A DNA stretch of 64,000 nucleotides from contig CANSLJ010000003.1 of the NCBI GenBank assembly GCA_947647735.1, positions 124,001 through 188,000 on the forward strand, read 5' to 3'. This document shows, in pieces, positions 4,594 to 50,495 of the stretch (position 1 is the stretch's first letter; each line of letters opens with the position of its first letter). Made by a program: the position numbers and the translations under genes. The DNA comes from an uncultured bacterium. Its GTDB lineage: Bacteria; Bacillota; Clostridia; Lachnospirales; Lachnospiraceae. The notes beneath the pieces were generated by a model. That model was not told where the DNA came from and did not search any database. It saw only the letters and a list, made by a program, of their open reading frames with translations.

Positions 4594-6078
4594 ATGAAAC
4601 TAGTGTGTTTAGCGAAAATGAAAAGAGTTGTCACAATAATTTTGCTGTTGTTTTTAATGACCCTTTTAATGGGATGTGGTGATATAAAGATGAAAAAAGG
4701 AGTTGAAGAATATATAGGCGATAATTATATAAAAGTAATTGACGAATTAAAGCAATTGGGATTTAGCGATATTAAGACAATCGAAATTGCTGATCTGACA
4801 TCATATGGGGAAACGCAGGATGGAACAGTTAGCGAGGTTTCAATTGAAGGAAATACGGAGTTTTCAATAGATACTGCATTTTCTAAAGACGCAAAAGTAG
4901 TTGTTACATATCATATTGTACAAAAACTGTCATTACCAGTTACGCTTGATCAAGTATCTGGTATGGGTTCTGTGGAGATAGTAGATGCGTTTACAAATGT
5001 CGGGTTCATAAATATTCAAGTAGAGGAGGTATACGATTTAGATCCGGACGAGATAGAAGAGGCATATCAAAATGAGATAAAGATAAATGACGATATGCTA
5101 TTAGCAAGTTCAGACGTTTATCCTTTTGATGCAGAAGTCAAAGTTATTTGTCATTATCCATATGAAAAATATGATATAGAATTAAAAATAGATTTTATAG
5201 GTAACCTATTTTTTAACAAATATGATGTTACTCTTTTAGTTGATGATAGTGAACAGAGCATATTAGAGCATGGAGAAGATTGGGAAGGAACACTAAGACT
5301 TAAAGCAGGAGAACATACGATTAAGTTTGCTAAAAGGAATGCATCTTCTGTAAAAGGCGAAACAGTTTTGGATGTCACAAGTAAAATTGCTGTTGAATAT
5401 AAGATATATTGTTATGGCGATGATATAGATGTAAAAATCGTGTACTTGGATAGAGAAGTGGAACTTGCAGATAATGAAGTGAAAGTTCTGTGTACAGAGT
5501 CTAATTATCGAGGTAAGAATTACAAAACAATAAAGCAGGAATTAGTAGAACTGGGATTTGTTAATATTAGGACAAAGCCAGTGTACGATATCATTTGGGG
5601 AATTACCGAAAAAGAATCTATAAGTAATGTGATGATTGGCGGAGCGAATGATTATAAACGTGGCGACATATTTTTGAATGATGTTGAAGTTGTAATTACA
5701 TACCACATGCCTTATGAAGATGATCCGGAAAATAAGGTTGTAGAAGAGGAAAAAGATTCTGATAAAAAGACATCTGATGAGGAAAGCGAAAAAGAGAGCA
5801 GTCAGAAAAAGCCTATTTATGACAGCGATGCAGAAGTACTTGATGAATATGATGCATGGAAAGCAGTAGAAGAATATGGTGAGAGTCAGTATTCAACTTT
5901 TGATTTACATTACATGAGCGGAAAACTTTTAGCAGAGCAGAAAGATGACAATACGTGGAATTTAAAGGCACTTTGCGATGTTGATACCGGAAATGGAGTG
6001 GTTAAAAATTGTAATTGCGAAGCGACCGTTGAGGGGACGAATTTGGATAAAAGAGTAACATATTTTATTGTGTATTAG
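4594..6078 (+). CDS. Putative lipoprotein with PASTA-like repeats
   Basis: A 494-residue protein with a lipoprotein signal peptide; the lipobox is LLMGC, with Cys at about residue 28. Three diverged repeats follow the pattern LxxxGFxxI...D..xxVSxVxIxG...F..DAxVVxTYH, at about residues 45-110, 125-195 and 310-375, recalling the PASTA-like units of Gram-positive surface lipoproteins. A charged low-complexity linker (rich in E, K, D, S) precedes a C-terminal domain beginning DAWKAVEEYGESQYS. The start has a strong AGGAGG. Function is unknown; it is exported and membrane-tethered, and it heads the AT-rich accessory block containing a nuclease-toxin lipoprotein. Confidence 0.8.
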   Translation: MKLVCLAKMKRVVTIILLLFLMTLLMGCGDIKMKKGVEEYIGDNYIKVIDELKQLGFSDIKTIEIADLTSYGETQDGTVSEVSIEGNTEFSIDTAFSKDAKVVVTYHIVQKLSLPVTLDQVSGMGSVEIVDAFTNVGFINIQVEEVYDLDPDEIEEAYQNEIKINDDMLLASSDVYPFDAEVKVICHYPYEKYDIELKIDFIGNLFFNKYDVTLLVDDSEQSILEHGEDWEGTLRLKAGEHTIKFAKRNASSVKGETVLDVTSKIAVEYKIYCYGDDIDVKIVYLDREVELADNEVKVLCTESNYRGKNYKTIKQELVELGFVNIRTKPVYDIIWGITEKESISNVMIGGANDYKRGDIFLNDVEVVITYHMPYEDDPENKVVEEEKDSDKKTSDEESEKESSQKKPIYDSDAEVLDEYDAWKAVEEYGESQYSTFDLHYMSGKLLAEQKDDNTWNLKALCDVDTGNGVVKNCNCEATVEGTNLDKRVTYFIVY

Positions 6079-6405
6079 CAAAAGTTTAAGCGAAAGGATA
6101 TGTAATAATATTTGTTATATTAAATTAGTAGATTCATATTTGGAATATTTGTATGAAAATTAGAGAGAAGAGGTGATAAGATATAATTGCAAAGTGTAGT
6201 CAATATGGTAAAAGAGTTATAGTTTATCAAAAATGTAGAAGGAGTATAATAGGGAATTTGAAGATGTAGTGCTATAATGATTTTATGGAGATATGTCGTT
6301 TTATGTGATATAGTAAATTATGAAACTTTATATGCATAGGTAAGGTATCAATGACTTCCCATCCATATAATTTGAAAAAGCATTAAGTCGGAGGTTAGTG
6401 CGACT
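6079..6405. other. 327-nt AT-rich spacer
   Basis: Non-coding and strongly AT-rich. An extended -10 (TG-C-TATAAT, hexamer at 6273-6278) could start transcription of the gene at 6406, and another TATAAT lies at 6244-6249. I see no good terminator or ORF. Confidence 0.5.
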
Positions 6406-8286
6406 ATGATAAAGAGCCAAACTTTGCCGTGTTTTGTAATACATATATCTGCCTTCTTTTGCGTGATACTAATGTTCTTTGGTTTATTCCCACTTATGAC
6501 CTTGGCAACAAGTGGGAGAGTTGAGGTTGCCGGGAATGTGTATGAGTTTGATGGGGATAGTCATTATGAATTTCAGGAAGATGATACGTTTACTTCGTCT
6601 GAAGATTGTGACACATATGGGGCTTTTTCTATTAATGGCAACATTGCTAATGTAAGTGTGCGTGATGGTATACCTTCTTATGAGGTATCTGACGGAAATT
6701 TGACACTTTTCTACGATCATGGTGATGCCATACTCAATGCAGATGTTGACTCTTGGCATCTCATTGAAGATAAGAGTAAAAAAGTAGCAGACATGACAAT
6801 CAGTTCAAATATTATGAAGGGGGCAATTATTATCCAGACATCTAAAGATCGGAAAACTTGGGTAGATGTCAATACCATTACGAATGCTTTCGGCGATACG
6901 CCTGTTCGAACAAGTTCTATCTATTCTACTTCTGAAGTTCAACTTATAAATGGTTGCTTCTATCGGGTAGTTGTTGCTTATGAACTTCGTATTAGAACCA
7001 AGTCCAGATCAATTATTCCAGACAAATACGATTATAAAAAATATGCTGAGGTCTATGAGTTTTATGCGTTCACAGACTGTGGTGAAGAGGATGCCATTGA
7101 CCCTGATCAAACCTATAATCTTGGTTCAAAGGTTCGTGTTGAAAATTTTGATGGTTACTTCGGCAGTACAACGATTGACAAAAAGGATGCTCATTATGGT
7201 TGGGAACTTGGACGTTTCTTTGTGAGTGGCTATACCGATAAGGTCACAAATAGTAACGGCGATATGGTGTTCCTTAAAAATGTTGGGGATAAAGTTACTC
7301 TGTGGTTCAAGCTGAATGAAAATATTAACGTACTGAGAGGAAATGAAAAGTTATCTATTACGGCTGACACGGAAGGCTATGACCAATATTTTGAAACATC
7401 TAAAATGAACTTTGGTCGTGGAGCTCTAATTATCCGCTATACTGATCATAACAATGTTTCCATGGAACCTACAATTTATACAAACTACTTGGAAGCAAAT
7501 GCAACAGTTGGGATTGATACTAAAGTTCAGCTTTTTGAGGAGGGCGATTATGAAGTCGCACTCGACTATGAGATTACCAGTGACGAGTTGATTGACAAAA
7601 TCGGACATTACCGCATTTTCTTCAAGTTCTCAGTCAGGAATGGAAACTGCATGGTATATCCTTTTGATGTTGTTACTGGCAGCGAACTGACAAACAGCTC
7701 AATGACTGAAAATGGTTTTCGGCTTGACTTGGCAAAGTCTCGTTACTTGAAAGTCAATATCAAACGGGAGGTTTTGAAAGACAGCGCAGACGGGCTTGTT
7801 GAGGACATACGTTCTAATGGCCCTGCTAAAGATGGTGCAAAATATACAGATGAGGGTATCTATACGATTACAGTCCAAAATGAATACACGAATCAACTTA
7901 CAGTTAAGAAAATTTATGTGGGAACGAACAGTGTTCTTCGGGCTTATATGACAACAGGACTTTCTATTCCTGAAATCAATTCGCTGCTTGAGCAAGGTGC
8001 GACAATTTCCGACGATGGAAGTATTCGGTTACCTAGTAATACTCAGTCTGTCGAACAGCCCGGTGAAGTCGAAGGAACTCTTGTGCCTGCGCCAGAACAG
8101 TTGCCTACAAATGAACCACAAATGCAGCAAGTTGAAGATGATATAGGTACAGTACCTAATTTTATAATTATCATTGTAGGTGTTTGCATTATTGCTTTTG
8201 GAATAATTGCACTTATCTTTCTAAAAAAGCGAAAAACACCTGTCTCTAATGGTGGAAATGAGAACAAAAGAGGTGAAAATCAATGA
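6406..8286 (+). CDS. Membrane-anchored surface protein of unknown function
   Basis: A 626-residue protein with an N-terminal signal peptide (hydrophobic to about residue 34), a long polar ectodomain and a C-terminal membrane helix (FIIIIVGVCIIAFGIIALIF, about residues 585-605) followed by a KKRK stop-transfer. There is no LPXTG motif. A glutamine/proline/glutamate-rich stalk precedes the membrane helix. GGAGGT supports the start. The stop overlaps the start of the LHH lipoprotein gene by ATGA, so the two are translationally coupled and probably work together. I do not recognise a catalytic domain. Confidence 0.8.
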   Translation: MIKSQTLPCFVIHISAFFCVILMFFGLFPLMTLATSGRVEVAGNVYEFDGDSHYEFQEDDTFTSSEDCDTYGAFSINGNIANVSVRDGIPSYEVSDGNLTLFYDHGDAILNADVDSWHLIEDKSKKVADMTISSNIMKGAIIIQTSKDRKTWVDVNTITNAFGDTPVRTSSIYSTSEVQLINGCFYRVVVAYELRIRTKSRSIIPDKYDYKKYAEVYEFYAFTDCGEEDAIDPDQTYNLGSKVRVENFDGYFGSTTIDKKDAHYGWELGRFFVSGYTDKVTNSNGDMVFLKNVGDKVTLWFKLNENINVLRGNEKLSITADTEGYDQYFETSKMNFGRGALIIRYTDHNNVSMEPTIYTNYLEANATVGIDTKVQLFEEGDYEVALDYEITSDELIDKIGHYRIFFKFSVRNGNCMVYPFDVVTGSELTNSSMTENGFRLDLAKSRYLKVNIKREVLKDSADGLVEDIRSNGPAKDGAKYTDEGIYTITVQNEYTNQLTVKKIYVGTNSVLRAYMTTGLSIPEINSLLEQGATISDDGSIRLPSNTQSVEQPGEVEGTLVPAPEQLPTNEPQMQQVEDDIGTVPNFIIIIVGVCIIAFGIIALIFLKKRKTPVSNGGNENKRGENQ

Positions 8287-9512
8287 AACGTATAATTGCT
8301 ATCTTTGTGTGTGTGACAATGATTCTTACTGGTTGCTCACAGTCACAGCATCAAGTACCAAATGCTGTTAGTGAGTCTGAAATCGTTCCTCCCACACCTT
8401 CTTTCGAAGCGATTGAAACGGCTATGTGGGAAAATGGGGAGACGCATTATAATTCCTTGGATGATGCGTTTTTACTGGCGTACATAGAAGATTTGATTTA
8501 TACGGAGACCATTACCTCTCTCAATAGTGAGGAATATTTTGTTGAGGATGTAAATGCTGTCTACATATCGAAAGAATACCTTGAGGAAGTTGCTTATAAT
8601 TCGCAATCTAACATCTACTTTGGATATACCCTAGATGAGCTGGATTCGTTATTCCAAGGCACAAGGTATATTTTTACCTTAGATGAAAAAGGGAAGACCA
8701 CTGTTCAGGAACTTCAAGAAATAGAAGATGTCACCACTGAAACCATATTAAAAAATGTTGCCATAGGTACAGGTGTCATTCTTGTCTGTGTTACAGTTTC
8801 TGTTGTTTCGGCAGGGATCGGTGCGCCAGCCGTAAGTATGATCTTTGCTGTCTCTGCAACGACAGCAGAAACTATGGCAATTTCCTCCATAGTGTTCGGT
8901 GGCATTTCCGCTGGTATTGTCCGGGGTATTCAAACGGGGGACTTTAATGAGGCTGTCGAAGCAGCCTCTCTTGCTGGAAGTGAAGGGTTCAAATGGGGCG
9001 CGATTAGTGGTGCTGTTCTTGGTGGTACAAGTGAAGCATTTTTTCTTAAAAGGGCTACCGAGAGTGGACTAAAGATGAATGAAGCTGCAATAATTCAGAA
9101 AGACTCCAAATGGTCATTGGATGCAATAAAGAGTATTCATTCAATAGAAGAATATAATATTTATAGGGATGCTAGCCTGACTCCAACTAAACTCTCTAAT
9201 GGCGAATTCGTATTTTTAAGACAAATTGACTGGACGCTTATCGATGCTGATGGAAGAACAAATGTACAAAGGGTTGATGCAAATCTTGCACCTATTGATG
9301 CAACAGGAAAACCTTTTGAACTGCACCACATAGGACAAAGAGCGGATTCACCATTGGCGATTTTATCTTGGGATGAACATCACTCATCTGAAAATCATAG
9401 CGTTTTGCACTATGCTGAACAAGGGAAAGATATTTCAAATACCGTGTGGAACAAGCAAAAACAGGAGATTTGGAAAAGTGTTCTAAAGATGAACAAGAGC
9501 ATAGTTGAATAA
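8283..9512 (+). CDS. Lipoprotein with C-terminal LHH-family nuclease domain (polymorphic-toxin-like)
   Basis: A 409-residue protein. The signal peptide ends in the lipobox LTGC (residues 15-18). Residues about 155-245 are Gly/Ala/Val/Ser-rich and hydrophobic, like the glycine-rich segments before toxin tips. The C-terminal about 75 residues match the LHH group of HNH/endonuclease VII-fold toxins: LHH at 347-349, then a His-rich block H366, H367, H372, H376 (EHHSSENHSVLH). The ORF is intact. Its start overlaps the preceding surface-protein gene by ATGA. A decayed SUKH gene follows within 45 nt, which is the usual immunity family for such toxins. Nuclease activity and delivery route are inferred. 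Confidence 0.8.
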   Translation: MKRIIAIFVCVTMILTGCSQSQHQVPNAVSESEIVPPTPSFEAIETAMWENGETHYNSLDDAFLLAYIEDLIYTETITSLNSEEYFVEDVNAVYISKEYLEEVAYNSQSNIYFGYTLDELDSLFQGTRYIFTLDEKGKTTVQELQEIEDVTTETILKNVAIGTGVILVCVTVSVVSAGIGAPAVSMIFAVSATTAETMAISSIVFGGISAGIVRGIQTGDFNEAVEAASLAGSEGFKWGAISGAVLGGTSEAFFLKRATESGLKMNEAAIIQKDSKWSLDAIKSIHSIEEYNIYRDASLTPTKLSNGEFVFLRQIDWTLIDADGRTNVQRVDANLAPIDATGKPFELHHIGQRADSPLAILSWDEHHSSENHSVLHYAEQGKDISNTVWNKQKQEIWKSVLKMNKSIVE

Positions 9513-9556
9513 TGAACATTATTTCTGTATAAAGGGAACAACCTAGGGGTGCATTT

Positions 9557-9910
9557 TTGAACGGAGTTGATTTTTATAAAATTCAGGATGCAGAAAAAAT
9601 TCTAGAAATAATGTTTCCATAAGAGTATAGAGAATATATCTAAGAATTTGGTTTTACACCATATTATGGTCATGACTTAACCGGGATATGCAATATCACA
9701 TACTTGAATGTAGTCGATGTGATTTTTACAGAAAATTTTTAATGACAAGCTGAATTAAGTTGGTATGTCATCAAAGATACTTATTATAGATAGAATTGTA
9801 ATCTGGCAAAGGGAACCATTGTGAAATGGTAAGTGATATGAACAGACAAATGATTAAAAAGTACATTGGAGAATGAAATGAAAGAGATAAAATGGAAAAT
9901 GATAGGATAA
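9557..9910 (+). pseudogene. Decayed SUKH (SMI1/KNR4) immunity gene
   Basis: One frame, opened by a possible TTG at 9557, reads a recognisable SMI1/KNR4 protein interrupted by TAA, TAG and TGA codons. Surviving pieces in order are DFYKIQDAEKILEIMFP, EYREYI, EFGFTPYYGHDLTGICN, ITYLNVVDVIFTENF, AELSWYVIKDTYY and NLAKGTIVKW. These match the SUKH order: N-terminal helix, LP-x-x-Y-x-x-(F/Y) segment, GxxLxGI strand, NVVD strand and YVI...G.(V/I)Y hairpin. At least eight stop codons lie in frame without any frameshift, so it cannot make a full protein. It lies directly after the LHH toxin gene, where the immunity gene belongs. Confidence 0.78.
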
Positions 9911-9967
9911 TGGCTGTAGAACCGTCTTTGGGTGGAATGGTAATATCAGTCCAGTAGAGCAGAAGTT

Positions 9968-10000
9968 ACGCCGGGGAAGAGTTGAATCCCCGGCGTTTTA
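9968..10000 (+). terminator. Intrinsic terminator closing the accessory block
   Basis: A 10-bp perfect GC-rich stem (ACGCCGGGGA with TCCCCGGCGT) with a 9-nt loop is followed by TTTTA. It lies after the SUKH remnant. Confidence 0.75.
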
Positions 10001-10043
10001 CAATAATAGTAGTATGAATAGTAAAATTTTAAAAGCAATTAAA

Positions 10044-10061
10044 AAATAACGATAGTTATTT
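10044..10061 (-). terminator. Weak intrinsic terminator for asnA
   Basis: On the reverse strand AAATAAC-TATC-GTTATTT forms a 7-bp stem running into a T-run, 17 nt past the asnA stop. The stem is AT-rich and therefore weak. Confidence 0.45.
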
Positions 10062-10077
10062 ATAAGGGCTCTGTCTC

Positions 10078-11088
10078 CTACAGCAGCTTCACCCCGCGCT
10101 CCTCCATCAACTTCACCGTCTCCTCCGTCCAAATCGAACTCTGCACCTCCCCGATATGGGCTTTCCGCAGAAAGAACATACAGATACGGGACTGGCCGAT
10201 GCCGCCGCCTATCGTATAAGGAAGCTCTTTTTCCAGAATGGCTTTCTGGAAGGGAAGTTCGGCGCGTTCCTCGCAGCCTGCTTTGGCGAGCTGTGCCTTT
10301 AAGGAATCCTCATCCACACGGATACCCATGGAGGACAGCTCCAGAGCGATATCCAGCACAGGATAATAAACGATGATATCCGCATTCAGCGCCCAGTCGT
10401 CATAGTCCGGGGCCCTGCCGTCGTGGCGTTCACCGGAGGCAAGCTTATCGCCGATCTGCATCAGGCAGACAGCGCCCTTTTCCTTTGTGATATAATATTC
10501 TCTCTCCTTCGGTGTGGCATCCGGATACATATCCTCCAATTCCTGAGTTGTCAGGAAGAAAATTTCGCTGGGCAGGATCTCTGTTATGTAATCGTACTGG
10601 ATCGCCATATATTTTTCGGTCTTGCAGAGCACCCGGTACACGTCCCGCACCACGGTTTTCAGGGTATCGAGGTTACGCTCATCTTTGGCGATGATCCGCT
10701 CCCAGTCCCACTGATCCACAAAAATAGAATGGATGTTGTCGGTCTCTTCATCCCGGCGGATCGCGTTCATATCTGTGTAAAGGCCTTCACCGTAATGGAA
10801 ACCATACTTTTTCAGTGCAAACCGCTTCCATTTTGCGAGAGATTGAACAACCTCCGCTTTCCTTTCATCCTGCTCTTTTACTGTAAAGTCAACCGGGCGC
10901 TCGATGCCGTTTAAGTTATCGTTCAAACCGGACTCCGGCGTGACAAACAGCGGAGCTGATACCCTCTGCAGATGCAGCCTCTCTGTCAACAGGCTCTGAA
11001 AACAGTCTTTCACCAGCTTGATCGCAACCTGCGTGTCATGAAGGTTTAAGGCGGATTGATAGTTTTCCGGTATAAAAGTTTTGCTCAT
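10078..11088 (-). CDS. asnA: Aspartate-ammonia ligase (asparagine synthetase A)
   Basis: A 336-residue protein with the full AsnA fold, a class II aminoacyl-tRNA synthetase relative that makes asparagine from aspartate, ammonia and ATP. The N-terminus, the internal SIFVDQWDWE stretch and the C-terminal GGGIGQSR motif are typical. Length is close to E. coli AsnA. The gene is monocistronic or read with the DUF1266 gene 66 nt upstream on the same strand. I see no T-box or other leader structure in that short gap. Confidence 0.97.
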   Translation of the reverse strand: MSKTFIPENYQSALNLHDTQVAIKLVKDCFQSLLTERLHLQRVSAPLFVTPESGLNDNLNGIERPVDFTVKEQDERKAEVVQSLAKWKRFALKKYGFHYGEGLYTDMNAIRRDEETDNIHSIFVDQWDWERIIAKDERNLDTLKTVVRDVYRVLCKTEKYMAIQYDYITEILPSEIFFLTTQELEDMYPDATPKEREYYITKEKGAVCLMQIGDKLASGERHDGRAPDYDDWALNADIIVYYPVLDIALELSSMGIRVDEDSLKAQLAKAGCEERAELPFQKAILEKELPYTIGGGIGQSRICMFFLRKAHIGEVQSSIWTEETVKLMEERGVKLL

Positions 11089-11154
11089 AATGTTTTCCTT
11101 CCTTATTTAATAATGTAATGTGTTTTCTATATATTTATGTTGGAAATGGCTTTT

Positions 11155-11991
11155 TTAATCACGAGGCGGCACATACCACATACCGCTTCCCCACGCAGAA
11201 TCACTATCCAGAAGAATAGATACCAGCTTCCGGTACAGATTCAGGCCCTCGTTCAACTCAGGCAGCTTTGTGTCGTGGCGGAAATCCCAGTATAACTCGC
11301 CGCATAGCAAACTGGCGGCAAATTCCCCCCAGTTTTTAAAAACCCGCGCCTGATCCAGCCAGTATTCTGTCAGACCGTCAAATTCGTCCCGATTTAGCAG
11401 GCCGCAGGCATAGCCGCTGCGCAGGTGCCCCATGCACTCGCTGATATCCCATGCCAGATACCCACGGTGTCCTACGATGGGATAGAACTGGGCAGAGAAA
11501 TCCCGGGCTGTCTTGAAAAATGCAAGCGCCTGCTCATTCAGTTCATCCAGCGCGAAAGGAGGACGCCCTTCCCAGAAAGCCACAAAGTCCAGATACTGGC
11601 GGTTGCACAGGATTTCCTGCTGACAGAAATCAAGCAGGGATCTCTTATCTGTAATGCCGAATACCTGTTCCAAGTGTGCCCGGCAGGCGGTCTCATCCTC
11701 AGGGGAGGCACATCGGGGCAATGTGGTAAAAGAGATCCGATCAGGACCGGGAATCCCGGGCGTCCTCCGAAGAGCGCTGATACCTGCCAGCAGAGCGATA
11801 AATTCGTCTCTCCCGCAAGCCTTTTGTTCAGGGACACGGTTCTGGTACTCTTGAACCAGCGATAACACCTGTGGAGCCAGACCGGTGTCATAGGGGTGGA
11901 AATCAACCAGATCCGGATGGAATGCAGCGGCAGTTTCAGAATTGCCCTCTGCGGTTTTGCCTTGTTTTTTGAAACGGTCAAATAAAGCCAT
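11155..11991 (-). CDS. DUF1266-family protein
   Basis: A 278-residue soluble protein. The C-terminal half carries the family pattern of DUF1266: AWDISECMGHLRSGYACGLL, then a conserved FKNWGEFAASLLCGELYW at about residues 225-245. The N-terminal 30 residues are low complexity. There is no signal peptide or catalytic motif I can name. A likely promoter lies at 12093 on the reverse strand. Function is unknown; it is next to asnA but nothing shows a shared pathway. Confidence 0.75.
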   Translation of the reverse strand: MALFDRFKKQGKTAEGNSETAAAFHPDLVDFHPYDTGLAPQVLSLVQEYQNRVPEQKACGRDEFIALLAGISALRRTPGIPGPDRISFTTLPRCASPEDETACRAHLEQVFGITDKRSLLDFCQQEILCNRQYLDFVAFWEGRPPFALDELNEQALAFFKTARDFSAQFYPIVGHRGYLAWDISECMGHLRSGYACGLLNRDEFDGLTEYWLDQARVFKNWGEFAASLLCGELYWDFRHDTKLPELNEGLNLYRKLVSILLDSDSAWGSGMWYVPPRD

Positions 11992-12092
11992 AGCAGTTAT
12001 CTCCTTATAAAATACTGATTTATCAACATAAAGACGCTCGCGAAACGTGCGGCCGTCGCCTGGACATTTTTACGGAAAAAATCACATAAAGC

Positions 12093-12101
12093 ATTATAAC
12101 A
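12093..12101 (-). promoter_or_regulatory. Extended -10 promoter for DUF1266/asnA strand
   Basis: On the reverse strand TGTTATAAT contains a perfect TATAAT (plus-strand 12093-12098) preceded by the extended TGn element, about 100 nt ahead of the DUF1266 start. No good -35 is visible. Confidence 0.45.
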
Positions 12102-12169
12102 CAAAATGAACCGGTATGCACAGGAACTTTGCACTTGTTGCAAGGTCGCTTATAATCCCTCGAAAAATA

Positions 12170-12199
12170 TTGACACGGTCATTTTGGGGAGAGTAGAAT
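12170..12199 (+). promoter_or_regulatory. Sigma-A-type promoter for rnhA
   Basis: TTGACA (12170-12175), an 18-bp spacer and TAGAAT (12194-12199), about 47 nt ahead of the rnhA start. It probably also drives the AAA/M41 fusion gene, since no terminator separates the two. Confidence 0.65.
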
Positions 12200-12245
12200 G
12201 AAGATGTTGTGAGACTGAATATCGTGACAGAAGAAGGAGGTTTTT

Positions 12246-12683
12246 ATGAAGACGATTCTTATCTATACAGACGGCGCATGCTCCGGGAATCCCGGGCCGG
12301 GCGGTTGGGCGGCAATCATTCTGGACGGAGAACGCGAGGAGACATTGGCAGGCGGTGAATCCGATACCACCAACAATCGCATGGAGCTGACAGGAGTCAT
12401 CAGGGCTCTGGAGGCTCTTGAGGAGCCATGCACCGTGGAGCTGTACAGTGACTCCAAATACGTTATCGACAGCCTGAGGGAGGGCAGAGCCGAGGGATGG
12501 AAAGCACGGGGCTGGGTGAAAAGCGACGGAAAGCCCGCGCTCAATCCTGATCTGTGGGACCGGCTGCTGGAACTGTGCGGGAAGCACAGGGTCAAACCGC
12601 ACTGGGTGGAGGGACATGCCAGCAACCCCTATAACAACCGCTGTGACGAGATGGCGGTTGAGGAAAGCATAAAGTATAAATAA
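12246..12683 (+). CDS. rnhA: Ribonuclease HI
   Basis: A 145-residue type 1 RNase H, which cleaves the RNA strand of RNA-DNA hybrids. All four acidic catalytic residues are in place: D9 (YTDGACSGNPGPGG), E47 (NNRMELTGV), D69 (YSDSKYV) and D134 (CDEMA), plus H124 in EGHASN. It has no N-terminal hybrid-binding domain, but one is present at the start of the next gene, 76 nt downstream on the same strand. AGGAGG lies just before the start. Confidence 0.97.
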   Translation: MKTILIYTDGACSGNPGPGGWAAIILDGEREETLAGGESDTTNNRMELTGVIRALEALEEPCTVELYSDSKYVIDSLREGRAEGWKARGWVKSDGKPALNPDLWDRLLELCGKHRVKPHWVEGHASNPYNNRCDEMAVEESIKYK

Positions 12684-12759
12684 GCGGTATCGGACCCTGC
12701 ATGTCAGGAAATGCGGGAATATGTATTTATAAACATGAAATACTGTCGGAGGAAAGAGG

Positions 12760-15700
12760 ATGAAGAAAAAGATTTACGCGGTGAGGAAAGGGCGCAGGCC
12801 GGGAATCTACGATACATGGAAGGAAGCGGAATGTCAGGTCCGGGGATTTCGCGGCGCGCAGTACCGCGGCTTCACCTATATGACTGAGCGGGAACAGGAA
12901 GATGAGACCGTGGAATGGAGCCTTGCCAGCGCGTGGAAACTGGCGGAGGGATATCTGGTGGACATCCCGGAGGGGGAGGATCCCCGCGAGGTCGAGAAAA
13001 AGGAGTTGCAGGAGGAGATGGAATCCGGCAGGGAATTTTTCCGGCAGACAGGGCGGACGGAGGACGCCTATGGCAATTCCCCCTGGATCGGCATCCTGAT
13101 GGAATGCGCTTCCGATCCCCGCTCTTTTATCAACGACGGACTGATAAAACGGCCGCTCCGTTACTGTTGTACCTCCGTCTATACGGCGCTGGTCTATCTG
13201 GTTCTGGATGGGCACAAATTTCCTGCTCTCTGGGAGAATGGGATGGCGAACGGCTGGGATGGCGAGCTGCCGGGCGAGTGGAATGACGAGGACGACGAGC
13301 CGATGGTTTCCATGCTGGATATCTGGCATAAGTCGAAAGATTATATCCGGCTGAAAAAACTGTTTGAAGAAAATGGAATGGATAAGGAGCATCTGTCGGA
13401 GCTCATCTACCGTGCCAAAGTAAAAGCGAAAAAGGCCGGGGATGACTACCATATCTCTCTGAGCGCCCCCGAGAATTCCTATCTGGCGCTGAAGCGCTTT
13501 ATCAGGCAGGGCAGCCATACGGTCACGGGATTGTACCGGGAACTGACGGGGAATCCGGTTTACCGTCAGGAACTTCTGGAGGTATCCGGGGCCTTCCTGA
13601 ACCCGGATCTGGAAGGAGAAACCGGAGCGGAAGAAGGCGCGGCGTCGGTACAGTATATAAAAACGCAGGCGGACGCCATCGCTCAGGAATTATATGAGAA
13701 GGTTGTCGGGCAGGATGAGGTGATCGAGCAGCTTCGGAACGCCTGGTTCCATAAGGAATTGAAGGCGGACATGGACGATAAAAAGAGAGGGCCCAGACAG
13801 GCGTACCTGTTTGCGGGGCCGCCTGGCGTCGGGAAAACTTTTGTGGCGGAGATCATGGCGGACACATTGAAGATTCCCTATAAGCGTTTCGATATGTCCG
13901 CTTACTCAGGCCAGAATGATGCGTCGGGACTTGTCGGATTTGAAAAGACATGGAAAGAATCAAAAGCGGGGGTGCTGACATCCTTTGTCCATGAGAATCC
14001 CAGATGTGTACTGTTGTTTGACGAGATTGAGAAGGCTCATGCGCAGGTGATCCTGCTCTTTCTCCAGATTCTGGACGAGGGCAGCTGCATCGATAAGTTC
14101 TATAACAAGAACGTGGATTTCAGAAACACGATCATCATCCTGACCACCAACGCCGGAAAGCAGCTGTATCAGGACGCCGAAAATGAGAATCTGGCTCTGC
14201 TGCCGGGTGCTGTCATCGTGGACGCTCTGAAGAAGGACAGGAAACCGGATACAACAAGTCCTTTTTTCCCGCCGGAGATCATATCCAGAATGTCCTCCCA
14301 TACAGTCCTTATGTTCAACCATCTGCGGGCGGGGGCCATTCTGGAGATCATAAAGAAGGATCTGGGCAGACAGACGACAATGCTGCGGAAAAAATACGGG
14401 TATGATATGAGCAGCGGACAGGATATCCTTGCAAGAACCGCCCTGTACTCAATGGGAGGAAATCTGGATGCCAGAAACGCTTCCGTGCTGGTCGGAAGGC
14501 TCATTGACAGAGCGTTGCTCTCCCTCCTGACTCTGGCAGATGAGAAGATGGGACTGAACGAGCAGGAAAGCATCCGCAGGATCGTATGGGAACAGGATTT
14601 CTCCGGCGCGGCGGGTGAGATCCTCGGGCTTTATTCCGGGGAGAAGGACTGCACTGTCGCGGTCTTTGGGGAGATGGATGAGATATCCTTCGAGGGTTTC
14701 GATGAAAATAATATCCGGCTCCGAAAGACGACGGATCCGGAAGAGTTTATGAAGATCCTCTGGGAGGAGGATGTGATCCTGACAGTGATCGACTATGAGT
14801 ACGGCATGGAGCAGAAGGATGGGAACCTGAGCATTGTGGACTGCCGGACGGAAGGCGGCAGGGTGTTCTCCCGCATAAGGGAGAAATATAAGGACAGTAT
14901 CCCGGTGTATATCCTGTGCGGCGGCGGATATGCCTACTCCAGAAGTGAAAGAGGAGAGCTCTGCCGCCGCGGCGCGAAGGGGTTCATAAGGCGGGAGGCA
15001 CTTGGCGCAGAGCTCCCGGCCGCATATGTGGATGTCTGCTGTCAGCAGGCGGTGGAGACACTTTTCCTGCGGCACCAGAAGATCTCCTATGACCTGAAAC
15101 AGGAGCTGGATATGCCGCAGAAGATCGGACGCATCGTCTTTTGCAATTTCAGGCTGGAGACGGCTGTGGAAGCGGAGGACAAAGACCTTCTGCTGTCGGC
15201 GGACATGAAGCCGGATACCCACTGGGACGACATCTATGTGCCCGATGGGATAAAAAAGGAACTGAAGTTTTTTATTGATTACCTGAAGACTCCCAGGAAC
15301 TTCAGCCAGACCGGGATCAGAGCGCCGAGGGGCGTGCTGCTGGCGGGTGTGCCGGGAACAGGCAAGACGTCCCTTGCGAGAGCGGTGGCAACGGAATCCG
15401 GCGTGAGTTTTCTGGAGGTCCATGCGGATCTGCTCAAACAAAAAGGTCCTGACGAGGTGCGCCGCGTCTTTAAGACCGCAAGGAAGTACGCCCCGGCGGT
15501 GCTCTTCATTGACGAGGTGGACACGATCGGCGCAAGCCGCCAGGCCGGCGCCGATAATTCCGTGCTGAATGCGCTGCTGACGGAGATGGACGGGTTCCGG
15601 AAAAATGATGGCAGCCCTGTATTTCTGATGGCGGCGACCAATCTTGGGCAGGCGATCGACGGCGCCCTGGCAAGGCGTTTTGACAGGGTATTTATGATTC

Positions 15701-16479
15701 CCCTGCCGGACAGGGAGGGAATCAGATGGATGCTGGGACGGCTGCTGGAAAAACACGGCGACAGGTTCCGGATCCCGCCCGCCGAGATGGAAGGGCTCGT
15801 GACCCATTTTGCAGGGATATCGTTTGCGAGGCTTGAGAACATCATGGAGGCGGCGCTGCGGGAAGCCGTCCGAAGCGGCATTCCGGTCGATCATATCCGG
15901 CTGTACGAAACCTTCGATGAGATGTCGATGGGGGAGGCGAGAGGCGGCGTACCGCTGGAGGAGATGAGGCGCGTCGCATACCATGAGGCCGGCCATGCCC
16001 TGATCAGTCTGGCTCACAATATGATTCCGAACTATATGAGTATTGTGGCAAGGGGCAGTTACGGCGGCTATGTGGCGAACGGTTCTGCCGGAGACGGCAC
16101 AAAAGAATCCACGTTGAAGATGATCCGCATATCTCTCGGGGGAAGGGCGGCGGAAACCGTGTGCGGGTATGGACTGTCCTCCGGGGCGAGCTCTGACCTG
16201 AAAAAGGCGACGCAGCTGGCTGCGGGGATGGTATGCAGCCTGGGAATGTACGAGGAGGAGTTCGGGCTTGCCGTCGTCCCGAAAGAAGAATTTTATAACA
16301 ATGAAAAGGCAAGGGCTCTGGTCGGCCGGATCCTGTCAGAGCAGTCAGAGAAAGCTGTGGAGATCATCAGCGGCAACAGGGAAGCTCTGGAACGGCTGGT
16401 GGATGCAGTGATGAACAGCAGGACGCAATCCCTTACAAAGAAGGAGATCGTGGTGGCCTATGAAGGCCGGGAAGCGTAA
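12760..16479 (+). CDS. HBD-Clp AAA-receiver-like-FtsH AAA-M41 metalloprotease fusion
   Basis: A 1239-residue, apparently soluble protein (no membrane helix, unlike FtsH). Domains in order: residues 4-45, an RNase H1/viroplasmin hybrid-binding domain (YAVRKGRRPGIYDTW...GFRGAQYRGF); about 300-600, a Clp-type AAA module with Walker A GPPGVGKT (353-360) and Walker B VLLFDE (417-422); about 630-790, a segment resembling a response-regulator receiver fold, without a clear phospho-acceptor; about 815-1050, an FtsH-type AAA with GVPGTGKT (863-870), VLFIDE (914-919) and a second-region-of-homology ARRFDR; about 1065-1235, an M41 peptidase with zinc motif HEAGH (1075-1079) and probable third ligand D1146 in SGASSDLKKAT. 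It should unfold and degrade proteins, perhaps at RNA-DNA hybrids; that last step is inference. The helicase gene follows directly. Confidence 0.88.
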   Translation: MKKKIYAVRKGRRPGIYDTWKEAECQVRGFRGAQYRGFTYMTEREQEDETVEWSLASAWKLAEGYLVDIPEGEDPREVEKKELQEEMESGREFFRQTGRTEDAYGNSPWIGILMECASDPRSFINDGLIKRPLRYCCTSVYTALVYLVLDGHKFPALWENGMANGWDGELPGEWNDEDDEPMVSMLDIWHKSKDYIRLKKLFEENGMDKEHLSELIYRAKVKAKKAGDDYHISLSAPENSYLALKRFIRQGSHTVTGLYRELTGNPVYRQELLEVSGAFLNPDLEGETGAEEGAASVQYIKTQADAIAQELYEKVVGQDEVIEQLRNAWFHKELKADMDDKKRGPRQAYLFAGPPGVGKTFVAEIMADTLKIPYKRFDMSAYSGQNDASGLVGFEKTWKESKAGVLTSFVHENPRCVLLFDEIEKAHAQVILLFLQILDEGSCIDKFYNKNVDFRNTIIILTTNAGKQLYQDAENENLALLPGAVIVDALKKDRKPDTTSPFFPPEIISRMSSHTVLMFNHLRAGAILEIIKKDLGRQTTMLRKKYGYDMSSGQDILARTALYSMGGNLDARNASVLVGRLIDRALLSLLTLADEKMGLNEQESIRRIVWEQDFSGAAGEILGLYSGEKDCTVAVFGEMDEISFEGFDENNIRLRKTTDPEEFMKILWEEDVILTVIDYEYGMEQKDGNLSIVDCRTEGGRVFSRIREKYKDSIPVYILCGGGYAYSRSERGELCRRGAKGFIRREALGAELPAAYVDVCCQQAVETLFLRHQKISYDLKQELDMPQKIGRIVFCNFRLETAVEAEDKDLLLSADMKPDTHWDDIYVPDGIKKELKFFIDYLKTPRNFSQTGIRAPRGVLLAGVPGTGKTSLARAVATESGVSFLEVHADLLKQKGPDEVRRVFKTARKYAPAVLFIDEVDTIGASRQAGADNSVLNALLTEMDGFRKNDGSPVFLMAATNLGQAIDGALARRFDRVFMIPLPDREGIRWMLGRLLEKHGDRFRIPPAEMEGLVTHFAGISFARLENIMEAALREAVRSGIPVDHIRLYETFDEMSMGEARGGVPLEEMRRVAYHEAGHALISLAHNMIPNYMSIVARGSYGGYVANGSAGDGTKESTLKMIRISLGGRAAETVCGYGLSSGASSDLKKATQLAAGMVCSLGMYEEEFGLAVVPKEEFYNNEKARALVGRILSEQSEKAVEIISGNREALERLVDAVMNSRTQSLTKKEIVVAYEGREA

Positions 16480-16543
16480 GGATTTCGGCTGCAGTAGTTT
16501 TGATCCGGATAGAGTGCATCCGGCTTTTCGAAGAGGAACCCCT

Positions 16544-19033
16544 ATGGAAGTGATCACCTCCGTCCGCAATCTGGTAGAATTTATTCTCCGCAGCGGCGAT
16601 ATCGACAACAGAAGAGCATCCGCCCCGGAATCCGCGATGCAGGAGGGCGGCAGGATCCACCGCATGCTGCAGCGGCGCATGGGGGCTGATTACCATGCTG
16701 AAGTAACTTTGAAATATACTTATCATACACCAAAGTATGATATTATCGTGGAGGGCAGGGCGGACGGCATTATCGACGGACAGCTGGCAAAACGGATCCT
16801 GAAGGAAGTGCCGGTTCAGTTCAGAGAGCCGGATCAGCCCCTGATCGAAGCGGCGATTTTGCAGAAAGACTATCCTGACACAATAGGTGACACGGTTGTC
16901 ATAGATGAGATCAAAGGAACTTACGCGGATGTCAGCAGGATGAAAGCCCCGGTTTCCGTGCATCTTGCACAGGCAAAGTGCTATGCCTATATTTACGCAA
17001 AACAAAATGACCTGCCCTATATCCGGGTACGCATGACCTACTGCAATATGGAAACGGAGGAGCTGCAGTATTTTTTTCAGGACTACCGTTTTCAGGATCT
17101 GGAAAAATGGTTTGAGGGACTGATGCAGTCCTATCAGAAATGGGCGGACTACGAGGTGGACTGGAAGGAAAAACGCCAGCGCTCCATCCGGGAGACGGAT
17201 TTTCCGTTCTCCTACCGGGAGGGGCAGAGAGAGCTGGTCACCTATGTCTATCAGACCCTCTACCATAAAAAGAAACTGTTCATCGAGGCGCCCACAGGCG
17301 TGGGGAAAACCCTGTCCACCGTATTTCCGTCGGTAAAAGCGATCGGGGAGCAGATGGCGGAAAAGTTGTTCTATCTGACCGCAAAAACCATCACACGCAC
17401 GGTGGCGGAGGAGGCTTTTTCCATTTTGCGGGGGCGCGGCCTGTTATTTAAGACTGTGATCCTGACAGCGAGAGACAAGATCTGCTTTCTGGAGGAGGCG
17501 GAATGCAATCCGGTCGCCTGTCCCTATGCAAAGGGGCATTTTGACAGGATCAACGATGCGGTTTACGATATGTTGACCCATGAAGTCAGCTTTACAAGGG
17601 AGCTGATAGAGGCTTATGCAAAGAAGCATCAGGTCTGTCCCTTTGAAATGTGTCTGGATATGAGTTTGTTTGCGGACGGAGTGATCTGCGACTACAATTA
17701 TGTGTTTGATCCCCATGTCTATTTGAGAAGATTTTTTGCGGAGGGTGTCAGGCGGGACTATATCTTTTTGGTGGATGAGGCGCATAATCTGGTGGACAGA
17801 GGGCGCGAGATGTACAGCGCCGTCCTGAAGAAAGAGGACTTTCTGGAACTGAAGAAGGTGGTCAAAGGGTACGATAAAAAGATGGCATCCCTACTGGAGC
17901 GCTGCAACAGACAGCTTCTTATCTATAAAAAGGAATGTGAGAACTATCAGATCCTGGAAAGTATTGATTCTTTTATTCTGGCGGTAAATAAACTGGCGGC
18001 GCAGATGGAGCGGTTTCTGGAAGAATATGATGACAGTCCTGTCAGGAAGGCTGTGTTGGAGTTTTACTTTGAAATCTCGCACTTTCTGCTGATTTATGAC
18101 AAGCTAAATGACAAATATGTCATATATAGTGAGATGCAGAGTGACGGCAGTTTTCTGTTGAAACTCTTCTGTGTGGATCCTTCCGGAAATCTGGAGGAGT
18201 GCATGATGCGGGCGAGGAGCAGCATCCTGTTTTCCGCAACTTTTCTTCCGATTCAGTATTATAAAAATCTGCTGGGCGGAGGAAAGGAGGATTATGAGGT
18301 CTATGCGTCCTCCGTTTTTTCGCCTGAAAAACGCGGGCTTTTTATCGGCTCTGATATCACAAGTAAATATACCAGACGGGGGCCCGGGGAATATTTCCGG
18401 GCGGCTTCCTATATTAAGGAGATCACAGCGCAGAAGAGGGGAAATTATCTGATCTTTTTCCCGTCCCATGCCTTCTTAAAACAGGTGTATGAAGTATATC
18501 AGGAAGCTTTTTATGAGGAGGAAAGAGAGATATGCATTTTACAGGAAGAGCGCATGGGGGAGAAGGAGCGGGAGGAGTTTTTGCGGATGTTCTCTCAGGA
18601 CGGGGAAGATAATATAAGAGACGATCGTTCCCTGCTCGGTTTCTGTGTGCTCGGCGGCATTTTCAGCGAGGGCATTGACTTAAAGCAGGACAGGCTGATC
18701 GGTGCGATCATTGTGGGCACAGGACTTCCCCAGGTCTGCAATGAGCGGGAGATCATCCGCCGGTATTTTGACGGGCAGTCGGAAAACGGCTTTGATTATG
18801 CCTACCAGTATCCGGGCATGAATAAAGTGCTGCAGGCGGCAGGCAGAGTCATCCGCACGGTGGAGGATGTGGGCATTGTGGCGCTTCTGGACGAGCGGTT
18901 CCTGCAGCGCTCCTATCAGCGCATGTTTCCACGGGAGTGGGCGGATTATCAGGTGACGACCTGCAATCATGCGGGTTTTCATGTCAGGGAATTCTGGGAG
19001 AAGTGGCGCAGCCGTTCGATCTCCTCCTTGTAG
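16544..19033 (+). CDS. XPD/DinG-family helicase with N-terminal PD-(D/E)XK nuclease domain
   Basis: An 829-residue superfamily 2 helicase. The N-terminal 200 residues look like a Cas4/RecB-type nuclease: D74 in EGRADG, E122-x-K124 in DEIKG, and a QAKCYAY helix. The helicase has Walker A APTGVGKT (249-256), four iron-sulfur cysteines (C314, C321 or C326, C365, C370) and DEAH (411-414). XPD-type enzymes unwind DNA 5' to 3'. The frame extends back to an ATG at 16460 overlapping the AAA/M41 stop, but that has a 13-nt spacer from its ribosome site; 16544 has AGAGGA at 6 nt and starts right at the conserved [10 protein letters not shown]. The 3' end overlaps nfo by 55 nt. Confidence 0.88.
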
Positions 19034-19857
19034 GGCGGCACTTTCTTATCCGGATTTTCCGGTGATGGAATATAGGGAGTCTCCAGAATCTTCGGGATAG
19101 CGGCGAGGGCTGGGTGATGTGCCACGCGGGCAAGGGCGTCAAACCCGATACAGCCGTCCCCCAGATTTGCATGCCTGTCTTTGCGGGCTCCCTGAGGATT
19201 TTTACTGTCGTTGAGATGGATGCAGGCAATCTGCGGGATGCCCAGCAGTTTATCAAAGGCAGTTAAAATACCATCAAAATCATGTATCACATCATAACCT
19301 GCATCGTGCATATGGCAGGTGTCCATGCAGACTCTGAGTTTCTCCGAGTGCACAGTCTTATCATAGATCTCAGCGAGTTCCTCAAAATTACTTCCTATCT
19401 CAGAACCCTTCCCCGCCATAGTTTCCAGCGCTATGTATACCGGGGTGTCGGCGGTCAGGATCTGATTCAGTCCTTCTGTGATCTTTTGGATGCCGGCTTT
19501 GGTACCTTCCCCTACATGAGAGCCCGGATGCAGTACCAGAACATGGCTGCCCATACCGGCGCTCCGTGTGATCTCTTTTTCCAGAAATTCCACTGCCAGT
19601 TCGAATGTGGAAGGATTGATCGTGTTGGCAAGGTTGATGATGTAAGGGGCATGTACGATAAACTGTTCGATGCCTGCTTCTTTCATAAGTGCGTGTGCCT
19701 CCGGTATCTTCAGTTCTGATAATTCTTTCCTTCTTGTGTTCTGGGGCGCGCCTGTATAGACCATAAAGGTGTCTGCCTGATAGGACAGCGCTTCTTTTAC
19801 GGAGCCTGCAAACATTTCTTTTCCGCTCATTCCTACATGAGAACCTATTAACAACAT
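18979..19857 (-). CDS. nfo: Endonuclease IV (AP endonuclease)
   Basis: A 292-residue class II AP endonuclease, which nicks DNA 5' to abasic sites in base-excision repair using a trinuclear zinc site. Visible family motifs are GSHVGMSG at the N-terminus, [41 protein letters not shown] and [10 protein letters not shown]. The frame runs back to 19968, but the ATG at 19857 with AAAGGA upstream begins exactly where homology begins. It converges on the helicase gene and overlaps its 3' end by 55 nt. Confidence 0.95.
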
Positions 19858-20152
19858 GGGATACCATCCTTTCTTTTCGGCTTCTTTTAATAAAATATAA
19901 AAAATCAATTTTACTATATAAACATCACATGACAGACTGAAGCAGTCAATATAATGAAGACACAACATATTGTAGCATACATCTTAAAACAACGCCAGAG
20001 CAGGGTGAAAAAAGTGCTGAAATTGTATGAAAAAAGAGATTTTATGTCTGTAAAATCTGAAAGAAGAACAAAAATTTATCTAAAGAAATACTTGATTTTT
20101 GGAATATGACATGGGTGATTTTTTTCTAAAATAGAGTTGACAGATGTGTATA

Positions 20153-20435
20153 TGTGGATAAATATGTGGAAAAGTGGTCATTCCGTGGAAAAAATGACAG
20201 GGATTCCATAAAATCAGAGGGAAAAATGTGGATTACTTTTTTGGGAAAAGGAAAACAGTACCGAAACAGTCAATTTAATGTGGATAAGAATTATGTAAAC
20301 ACAAGAGGCGGAGAAGGGCAGAGGAAATTGATTCTGTATAAAAAACAGTCGTTCTTTTCACATAAAATAATATATAAATTATATAAATGATGATGGAATA
20401 AACAATTCGGCGAAAGAGAAGGGCAGCTATCCACA
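20153..20435. promoter_or_regulatory. Cluster of DnaA-box-like sites
   Basis: Two perfect DnaA boxes TGTGGATAA (20153-20161 and 20279-20287, reverse complement of TTATCCACA) are joined by single-mismatch copies TGTGGAAAA (20165-20173), TGTGGATTA (20227-20235) and CTATCCACA (20427-20435), and a poorer CGTGGAAAA (20184-20192). An AT-rich tract lies at about 20363-20390. dnaA, dnaN and rpmH are not nearby, so a DnaA-titration or regulatory site is more likely than the chromosomal origin. Confidence 0.5.
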
Positions 20436-20754
20436 ACCAGTTGATCTGTAATATTATAGAATGGAGAATGAAAAGCGCAGGAAGAAGACAGTGCAGGAGG
20501 AAAACAGTGCGGGTAAAATTGAAAAAGATTTGGATAGAATCAACCGGAAAAATGTGGTATACTGTTCAAGGCGGTGAGGAGCGGCGGCAGAAGTGATGAA
20601 TATAAATATATGAATTATTAAGGAAATGTCTTTCTGGATTTGAGAAGGGAATTTTATTTATCATTCAGGCGTTAAATCAGATCCGCTTCAAATAAATGGA
20701 ACGCCGCAAAGAAAAGAGGTGAATTACCCAGTAGAATCTGGGAGAAAGGAAAAA

Positions 20755-50435: not shown

Positions 50436-50495
50436 TGTGATCATTTATAGTTGATAGTACCGGCGGCCGCATAAATGTTGGAGGAAAATAATGCC

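Follow-up and report, generated by a model that had tools for sequence, protein, structure and literature searches.

A hybrid-binding domain joined to a predicted two-AAA M41 protease in an uncultured Lachnospiraceae bacterium

Comparison of the fusion protein with described systems

FtsH has an N-terminal membrane anchor and an AAA domain, followed by an M41 peptidase that bears the HExGH motif and a conserved Asp. In ClpAP, the unfoldase ring and the proteolytic chamber are split over two chains, ClpA and ClpP. RNase H1 proteins carry an N-terminal hybrid-binding domain (HBD; Pfam family Cauli_VI, PF01693) in front of the RNase H catalytic domain. FtsH-like AAA proteins have also been reported from candidate conflict systems, the MoxR-vWA FtsH ternary systems, where two FtsH-type AAA copies are accompanied by MoxR and vWA partners (PMC7159879, accessible part). 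We have identified a gene that combines features of these systems in an uncultured bacterium under Lachnospiraceae. It lies within a stretch of 64,000 nucleotides (positions 124,001 to 188,000 of contig CANSLJ010000003.1, assembly GCA_947647735.1) that is referred to as the window. The gene, referred to as the fusion, encodes a 1239-residue protein and follows a gene for RNase HI, rnhA2; the span 12246..16479 that was treated in an earlier note on this DNA comprises both genes. The fusion is real, unusual, and conserved, while its partner and its target are what we infer. It may encode a cytosolic two-ring AAA+ protease that is aimed at RNA-DNA hybrids and serves an accessory conflict or defence module, not core R-loop repair, and we hold the case for this reading to be about evenly balanced.

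The features of the locus are shown in Table 1. The protein opens with an HBD, as the earlier note had claimed. Cauli_VI was matched with 54.9 bits (E 1.1e-14, cut-off 21) in the Pfam scan of the protein and with 60.5 bits in the PF01693 search of the source genome, where the curated cut-off of 21 was also passed and the fusion was the single match (the assembly is 86.6% complete, in 63 contigs). Residues 5-41 match the solved HBDs of RNase H, 1qhk (7.1e-9), 3bsu (5.7e-6), and 6vrd (1.5e-4), which are the only PDB sequences at E<=0.1 for the first 57 residues. No Pfam family was matched at E<=10 by residues 46-307, and a single-sequence structure model of residues 1-301 (mean predicted local distance difference test score of 38) was unusable and was discarded.

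The Clp-type AAA, the FtsH-type AAA, and the M41 peptidase that had been read from motifs were all recovered by Pfam, as AAA_2 at residues 349-512 (112 bits, Walker A/B intact), AAA at residues 859-982 (152 bits), and Peptidase_M41 at residues 1067-1222 (87 bits). The core alignment consists of 11 chains, the window protein and ten others (L116, fetched later, was left out). The key Walker A and B residues of both AAA regions are invariant in all 11 chains. The same applies to the M41 HExGH motif (H1075, E1076, G1078, and H1079), which reads HEAGH in the window, and to D1146, which would be the third zinc ligand by analogy with FtsH. The Clp pore-loop position, assigned from Clp motifs, is aromatic in 11 of 11 chains. 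The absence of a membrane anchor was also borne out. The best mean hydropathy over 19 residues is 1.47 in the fusion and 1.72 across the 11 chains, compared with 2.66 in one membrane-protein control, and none of these chains has a membrane-like stretch. The fusion is apparently soluble and cytosolic.

The segment between the two AAA regions had been called receiver-like, a claim that stood in part. Its alignment from nine of the 11 chains (the two most divergent, L041 and L042, were left out) gave an hhalign probability of 74% and an E-value of 2.7e-5 against three response regulators, which is weak support, and its best PDB matches are response regulators at a weak E-value of 0.022. All 11 chains keep D678 and G738. 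However, none of the nine chains has a Pfam receiver match, and three of them match OKR_DC_1_N weakly. The segment is weakly assigned as receiver-like.

The fusion resembles FtsH in its FtsH-type AAA followed by M41, and differs from it in the missing membrane anchor and in the additional HBD, Clp-type AAA, and receiver-like segment. Residues 303-588 match residues 447-717 of ClpA, that is, the second AAA region of ClpA. Unlike ClpA, ClpB, and ClpV, the fusion has only one Clp-type domain, with a fused M41 in place of a separate ClpP. It scored 268.4 bits against the NCBIfam FtsH_fam cut-off of 600, 160.6 bits against the ClpA cut-off of 993, and 117.9 bits against the ClpB cut-off of 1232. 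Because the equivalog cut-offs of FtsH and ClpA were missed, the fusion is neither FtsH nor ClpA. Compared with RNase H1, the HBD belongs to the same Pfam family and is N-terminal in both, whereas a protease takes the place of the RNase H catalytic domain. The MoxR-vWA FtsH ternary systems share the FtsH-like AAA, and neither M41 nor HBD is mentioned in the accessible part of that source (PMC7159879). Neither an HBD-protease nor a chain with Clp AAA, FtsH AAA, and M41 was found in open PubMed Central titles and abstracts, a search that mostly does not extend to the subscription literature.

Maintenance of the hybrid-binding domain and partial linkage with RNase H

The HBD-protease set consists of four proteins, from the window and from genomes G154, G306, and G013, that form one clade with a support value of 1.000 (FastTree, 12 chains). 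The G154 protein is the nearest relative, an orthologue that is 79% identical to the fusion. The G013 protein (L043) has 1613 residues and a duplicated FtsH-type AAA. Conservation was compared over nine segments of the chain. Among these the HBD ranks highest against G154 (93.3%; the others 65.0-85.2%), against G306 (80.0%; the others 46.7-68.5%), and against G013 (55.6%; the others 37.0-55.2%, with the Clp AAA nearly tied). The Nei-Gojobori ratio of nonsynonymous to synonymous substitution (dN/dS) of the HBD with G154 is 0.055, the lowest of the nine segments, a rough value from 45 codons; in the more distant pairs, saturation affects many of the dS values. In the first 38 residues of the four fusions, 19 are invariant, including Y6 and W20. 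The HBD is hardly a relic since it is the best-conserved segment in all three comparisons, and this favours a real targeting role.

In the alignment with 3bsu, human W43, K59, and K60 correspond to W20, R36, and G37 of the window fusion. The W43 position is W in all four fusions. The triple mutant W43A/K59A/K60A of the human protein is reported to abolish hybrid binding (PMC8677849, PMC6868509, accessible parts). In ordinary HBD proteins (12 loci were taken and 11 aligned), K59 is K in all 11 and the K60 position is occupied by S or G in 10 of them; a home-built profile found an RNase H domain in 12 of 12. Judged from these alignments, the HBD is maintained, with a conservative change of the key lysine, K to R, in three of four fusions, and binding of the fusion HBD to RNA-DNA hybrids is likely, not certain.

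The product of rnhA2 is an RNase HI (Pfam RNase_H, 140 bits; NCBIfam ribonuclease HI, 183 bits, above the cut-off of 160) that gave no Cauli_VI match at E<=0.1, in agreement with the earlier reading of a bare rnhA. The gene ends 76 base pairs upstream of the fusion on the same strand. RNase HI proteins that are 44-50% identical to it are present in nine of nine genomes of the genus, the source included, where the separate core rnhA is located at G000:C2. A close copy of rnhA2 itself was found only in the source genome among the nine (several of the assemblies are 85-87% complete). rnhA2 is a second, accessory copy of RNase HI.

In G013, the last 11 base pairs of the protease gene are shared with a same-strand gene for a 254-residue HBD-RNase H, whose D-E-D-D residues look intact by eye. 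Directly upstream of the protease lies a gene (7436-8110 of L043) for a 224-residue HBD protein without another Pfam domain. Three HBD proteins are therefore side by side in G013. In G154 and G306, a PF00075 search located the genes for RNase H away from the HBD-proteases. A six-frame scan of twelve loci, with stretches of 12-18 kilobases for those without HBD, gave an adjacent co-directional RNase H gene in two of four HBD loci (on opposite sides and of different types) compared with none of eight non-HBD loci; two further matches (E 0.077 and 0.59) were put down to chance. The crude probability of two in four by chance is 7e-6 if a genome of 3,700 genes, two of them for RNase H, and independence of the loci are assumed; as members of one clade, the loci are not independent. 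The pairing that the earlier note had described is thus partial. It stands for two HBD loci and is absent beside the other two, so RNase H is not adjacent in most homologues, and for the note's own refuting case, homologues mostly away from rnhA, the count is a tie.

Taxonomic distribution and genomic setting

HBD-proteases are present in two of nine genomes under the genus, the source and G154, while G150 and G157 of the same genus have a 1409-residue relative without HBD. Relatives at E<=1e-33 were identified in 6 of 397 family genomes and 3 of 391 class genomes, the source included in both, and in 7 of 275 genomes of a sample of relatives, including the source and four already found. The family, class, phylum, and relatives samples overlap, and their counts are not additive. 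One of these seven, a 749-residue frame in G1140 (E 8.7e-34), barely passed the threshold and was excluded from the family. PF01693 occurs in 108 of 397 family genomes, with a frame of more than 1000 residues only in the source, G013, and G306. It occurs in 42 of 348 phylum genomes, with such a frame in the source and in G1090, where the protein is of another kind and not an HBD-protease.

A wider, patchy family without HBD, represented here by eight loci (L041, L042, L061-L065, and L116), shares the AAA-AAA-M41 core and has differing N-termini. AAA_2, AAA, and M41 were all matched by Pfam in L041, L063, L064, L065, and L116, and the core of L042, L061, and L062 was judged from the alignment. 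The tails of the 1409-residue relatives (L041 and L042), HBD-like by eye, gave no Cauli_VI match at E<=10, and a home-built HBD profile gave -0.0 bits for L041; the reading of a C-terminal HBD was dropped. A scan of contigs from named genomes gave 16 loci, from Deltaproteobacteria, Myxococcales, and Nitrospirae, in which the best-matching segments fall within residues 770-1237. Carriage of the fusion by phages or plasmids was rejected: plasmid sequences gave no match at 1e-60, none of the six viral-contig stretches that fit the search pattern encodes a close relative of the fusion, and among the 24 phage records that match at 1e-30, the match in the 20 listed is confined to the FtsH/M41 part, from residue 805 onward.

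The neighbourhoods of the non-HBD relatives differ. Upstream of L062 are two small genes (6072-6988), both of the YbjN family above the cut-off, and upstream of L064 is a pair of small genes (1374-2315), one with a sub-threshold YbjN match (17.3 bits, cut-off 22). In L041, a gene resembling those of type IV coupling proteins lies two genes downstream of the relative. In L116 (1021-8301, genome G1211), the relative is preceded by a gene for a protein kinase with WD40-like repeats.

The module of the window, namely rnhA2 and the fusion, lies together with a DUF1266 gene in an apparently acquired insertion with approximate edges, between asnA and a resident helicase gene. In four congeners (G153, G154, G155, and G157), asnA and the helicase gene are direct neighbours and the insertion is absent at this junction. 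Homology of the window to the congeners is lost at 11106-11128 and regained at 16532-16559; these edges vary by comparison, and the congeners have some 250-370 unrelated bases in between. In the other four congeners asnA was outside the stretch fetched beside the helicase, and whole-genome searches gave neither an HBD-protease nor a close copy of rnhA2. Gain of the insertion in the source lineage would be the simplest reading of these comparisons. Sigma-70-like sites number five in 11000-16800, compared with a shuffle mean of 3.6, and the one before rnhA2 is only suggestive. The window has no transfer RNA gene, and 9500-20500 has no Rfam match at gathering scores.

The helicase gene (16460-19033, Rad3/DinG-like) was tried as a third partner of the module and rejected. 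It is present in nine of nine genomes of the genus, which makes it a resident gene, and adjoins asnA without the module in four; its listed start is 28 codons ahead of the start in congeners (equivalent of 16544). Two other genes of the window were noted. One (8283-9512) encodes a toxin-like protein of 409 residues with a lipoprotein-like start by eye and a C-terminal LHH (HNH/Endo VII) nuclease domain. The other (50475-54236) encodes a protein of 1253 residues with weak nSTAND and AAA_16 matches below the cut-off, possibly another conflict protein.

Table 1. Features of the locus in window coordinates.
Feature	Positions	Strand	Basis	Remarks
Approximate accessory insertion	11128..16532	.	congener comparison	about 5.4 kilobases; DUF1266 gene, rnhA2, fusion
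DUF1266 gene	11155..11991	-	Pfam	within the insertion
Sigma-70-like promoter before rnhA2	12170..12199	+		11/12 consensus positions; suggestive only
rnhA2, accessory RNase HI	12246..12683	+	Pfam RNase_H, NCBIfam ribonuclease HI	without HBD
Fusion gene	12760..16479	+		1239 residues; HBD, helical region, Clp-type AAA, receiver-like segment, FtsH-type AAA, M41 peptidase
HBD (Cauli_VI)	12769..12888	+	Pfam and PDB sequence matches	residues 4-43; best-conserved segment
Region without Pfam match	13075..13659	+	Pfam	residues 106-300
Clp-type AAA (AAA_2) region	13660..14529	+	Pfam, alignment	residues about 301-590
Receiver-like segment	14641..15087	+	alignment, hhalign, PDB search	residues 628-776; weak
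FtsH-type AAA region	15250..15951	+	Pfam, NCBIfam, alignment	residues about 831-1064
M41 zinc peptidase	15952..16476	+	Pfam, alignment	residues about 1065-1239; HEAGH 1075-1079, D1146

Proposed role and alternative explanations

A single chain of this kind would combine what ClpAP splits over two: first an unfoldase ring of Clp type, then a receiver-like spacer and a second ring, of FtsH type, and last the M41 chamber. The two rings would presumably be stacked. The N-terminal HBD would recruit the protease to RNA-DNA hybrids (or double-stranded RNA), where bound proteins would be unfolded and then degraded, and the linked RNase H, where present, would remove the RNA strand of the same structures. 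The earlier note had placed such a division of labour at R-loops, as a clearing of proteins while RNase HI removes the RNA, and this too is inferred. The patchy distribution together with the insertion favours an accessory system for conflict, defence, or element control over core R-loop repair, and the module might act on hybrids that arise from invading replicons. A fuller version, which would be a new kind of nucleic-acid-guided protein destruction, is tentative and less likely than not. The HBD-guided protease might recognise hybrids of invading replicons or retroelements, degrade the proteins bound to them, and work with a dedicated RNase H, as one branch of a broader clostridial family that exchanges its aiming part at the N-terminus.

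The use of HBDs outside RNase H has another example in G1090. At L111 (2157-10251), ZorA-, ZorB-, and ZorE-like genes are followed on the same strand by a gene for a 1505-residue protein with two HBDs, of which one is clear and the other weak. As in the fusion, the HBD is found outside RNase H, here by defence-type genes, and the chain differs in being weakly UvrD-helicase-like (19.5 bits, cut-off 23) without a protease. L111 is possibly an HBD-bearing variant of a Zorya-type locus, and it supports, without proof, the notion that HBDs can do the aiming or sensing within conflict systems. The same genome has a 400-residue RNase H with two tandem HBDs (L112, 4268-5470).

Several findings weigh against a hybrid-aimed defence protease. 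Two of the four HBD-proteases, including that of the nearest relative G154, have no neighbouring RNase H. The K59 position, R in three fusions, is C in G013, and the K60 position reads G, G, S, and G in the four. The pore-loop aromatic of the FtsH-type ring, at a position assigned from motifs, is missing in the window protein and most relatives. PADLOC matches of the fusion are confined to its AAA regions, and the DUF1266 gene has none (the scan covered these two genes). Neither repeats nor an integrase were shown at the insertion ends, and no mobile element with its ends was found. The G+C content of the insertion is 0.542 compared with 0.466 in the rest of the window, a contrast that is weak evidence, given values of up to 0.563 for individual genes in other parts of the window.

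The HBD could instead be a protein-docking domain that makes no contact with nucleic acid and binds a partner, either an RNase H or one of the proteins to which RNase H binds, and delivers it as substrate or regulator. This is doubtful. The HBD of human RNase H1 does bind the protein P32 (PMC3750045, accessible part), the four fusions have no lysine at the K59 and K60 positions, and the YbjN-family genes upstream of L062, with the sub-threshold one in L064, indicate that the family may work with protein adaptors. However, Y6 and W20 are invariant in four of four fusions, and for the cluster of three different HBD proteins in G013 a shared ligand is the easiest explanation.

It is unlikely that the fusion is a cytosolic protease for stress or signalling, switched mainly by its receiver-like segment and using the HBD only as a sensor of stalled transcription or replication. 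The invariant D678 and G738 and the kinase gene upstream of the relative in L116 would agree with it, but the receiver assignment is weak and no two-component gene was identified by Pfam or NCBIfam among the immediate neighbours of the fusion. Least probable of all is a housekeeping protease that strips proteins off R-loops so that RNase HI can act, to which the window order of rnhA, fusion, and Rad3/DinG-like helicase would conform, since HBD-proteases occur in only two of nine genus and 3 of 397 family genomes, the junction is empty in four congeners where the helicase, present in nine of nine genus genomes, adjoins asnA, and the linked rnhA is a spare copy.

If the reading of a two-ring protease aimed at RNA-DNA hybrids is true, the fusion would be a protease that is aimed by a nucleic-acid structure and not by a peptide tag, and it would unite a Clp-type unfoldase and an FtsH/M41 chamber within a single chain. 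In bacteria the HBD of RNase H is found outside RNase H, in one case beside ZorA/B/E-like genes, and hybrid sensing in bacterial conflict thus becomes amenable to direct tests.

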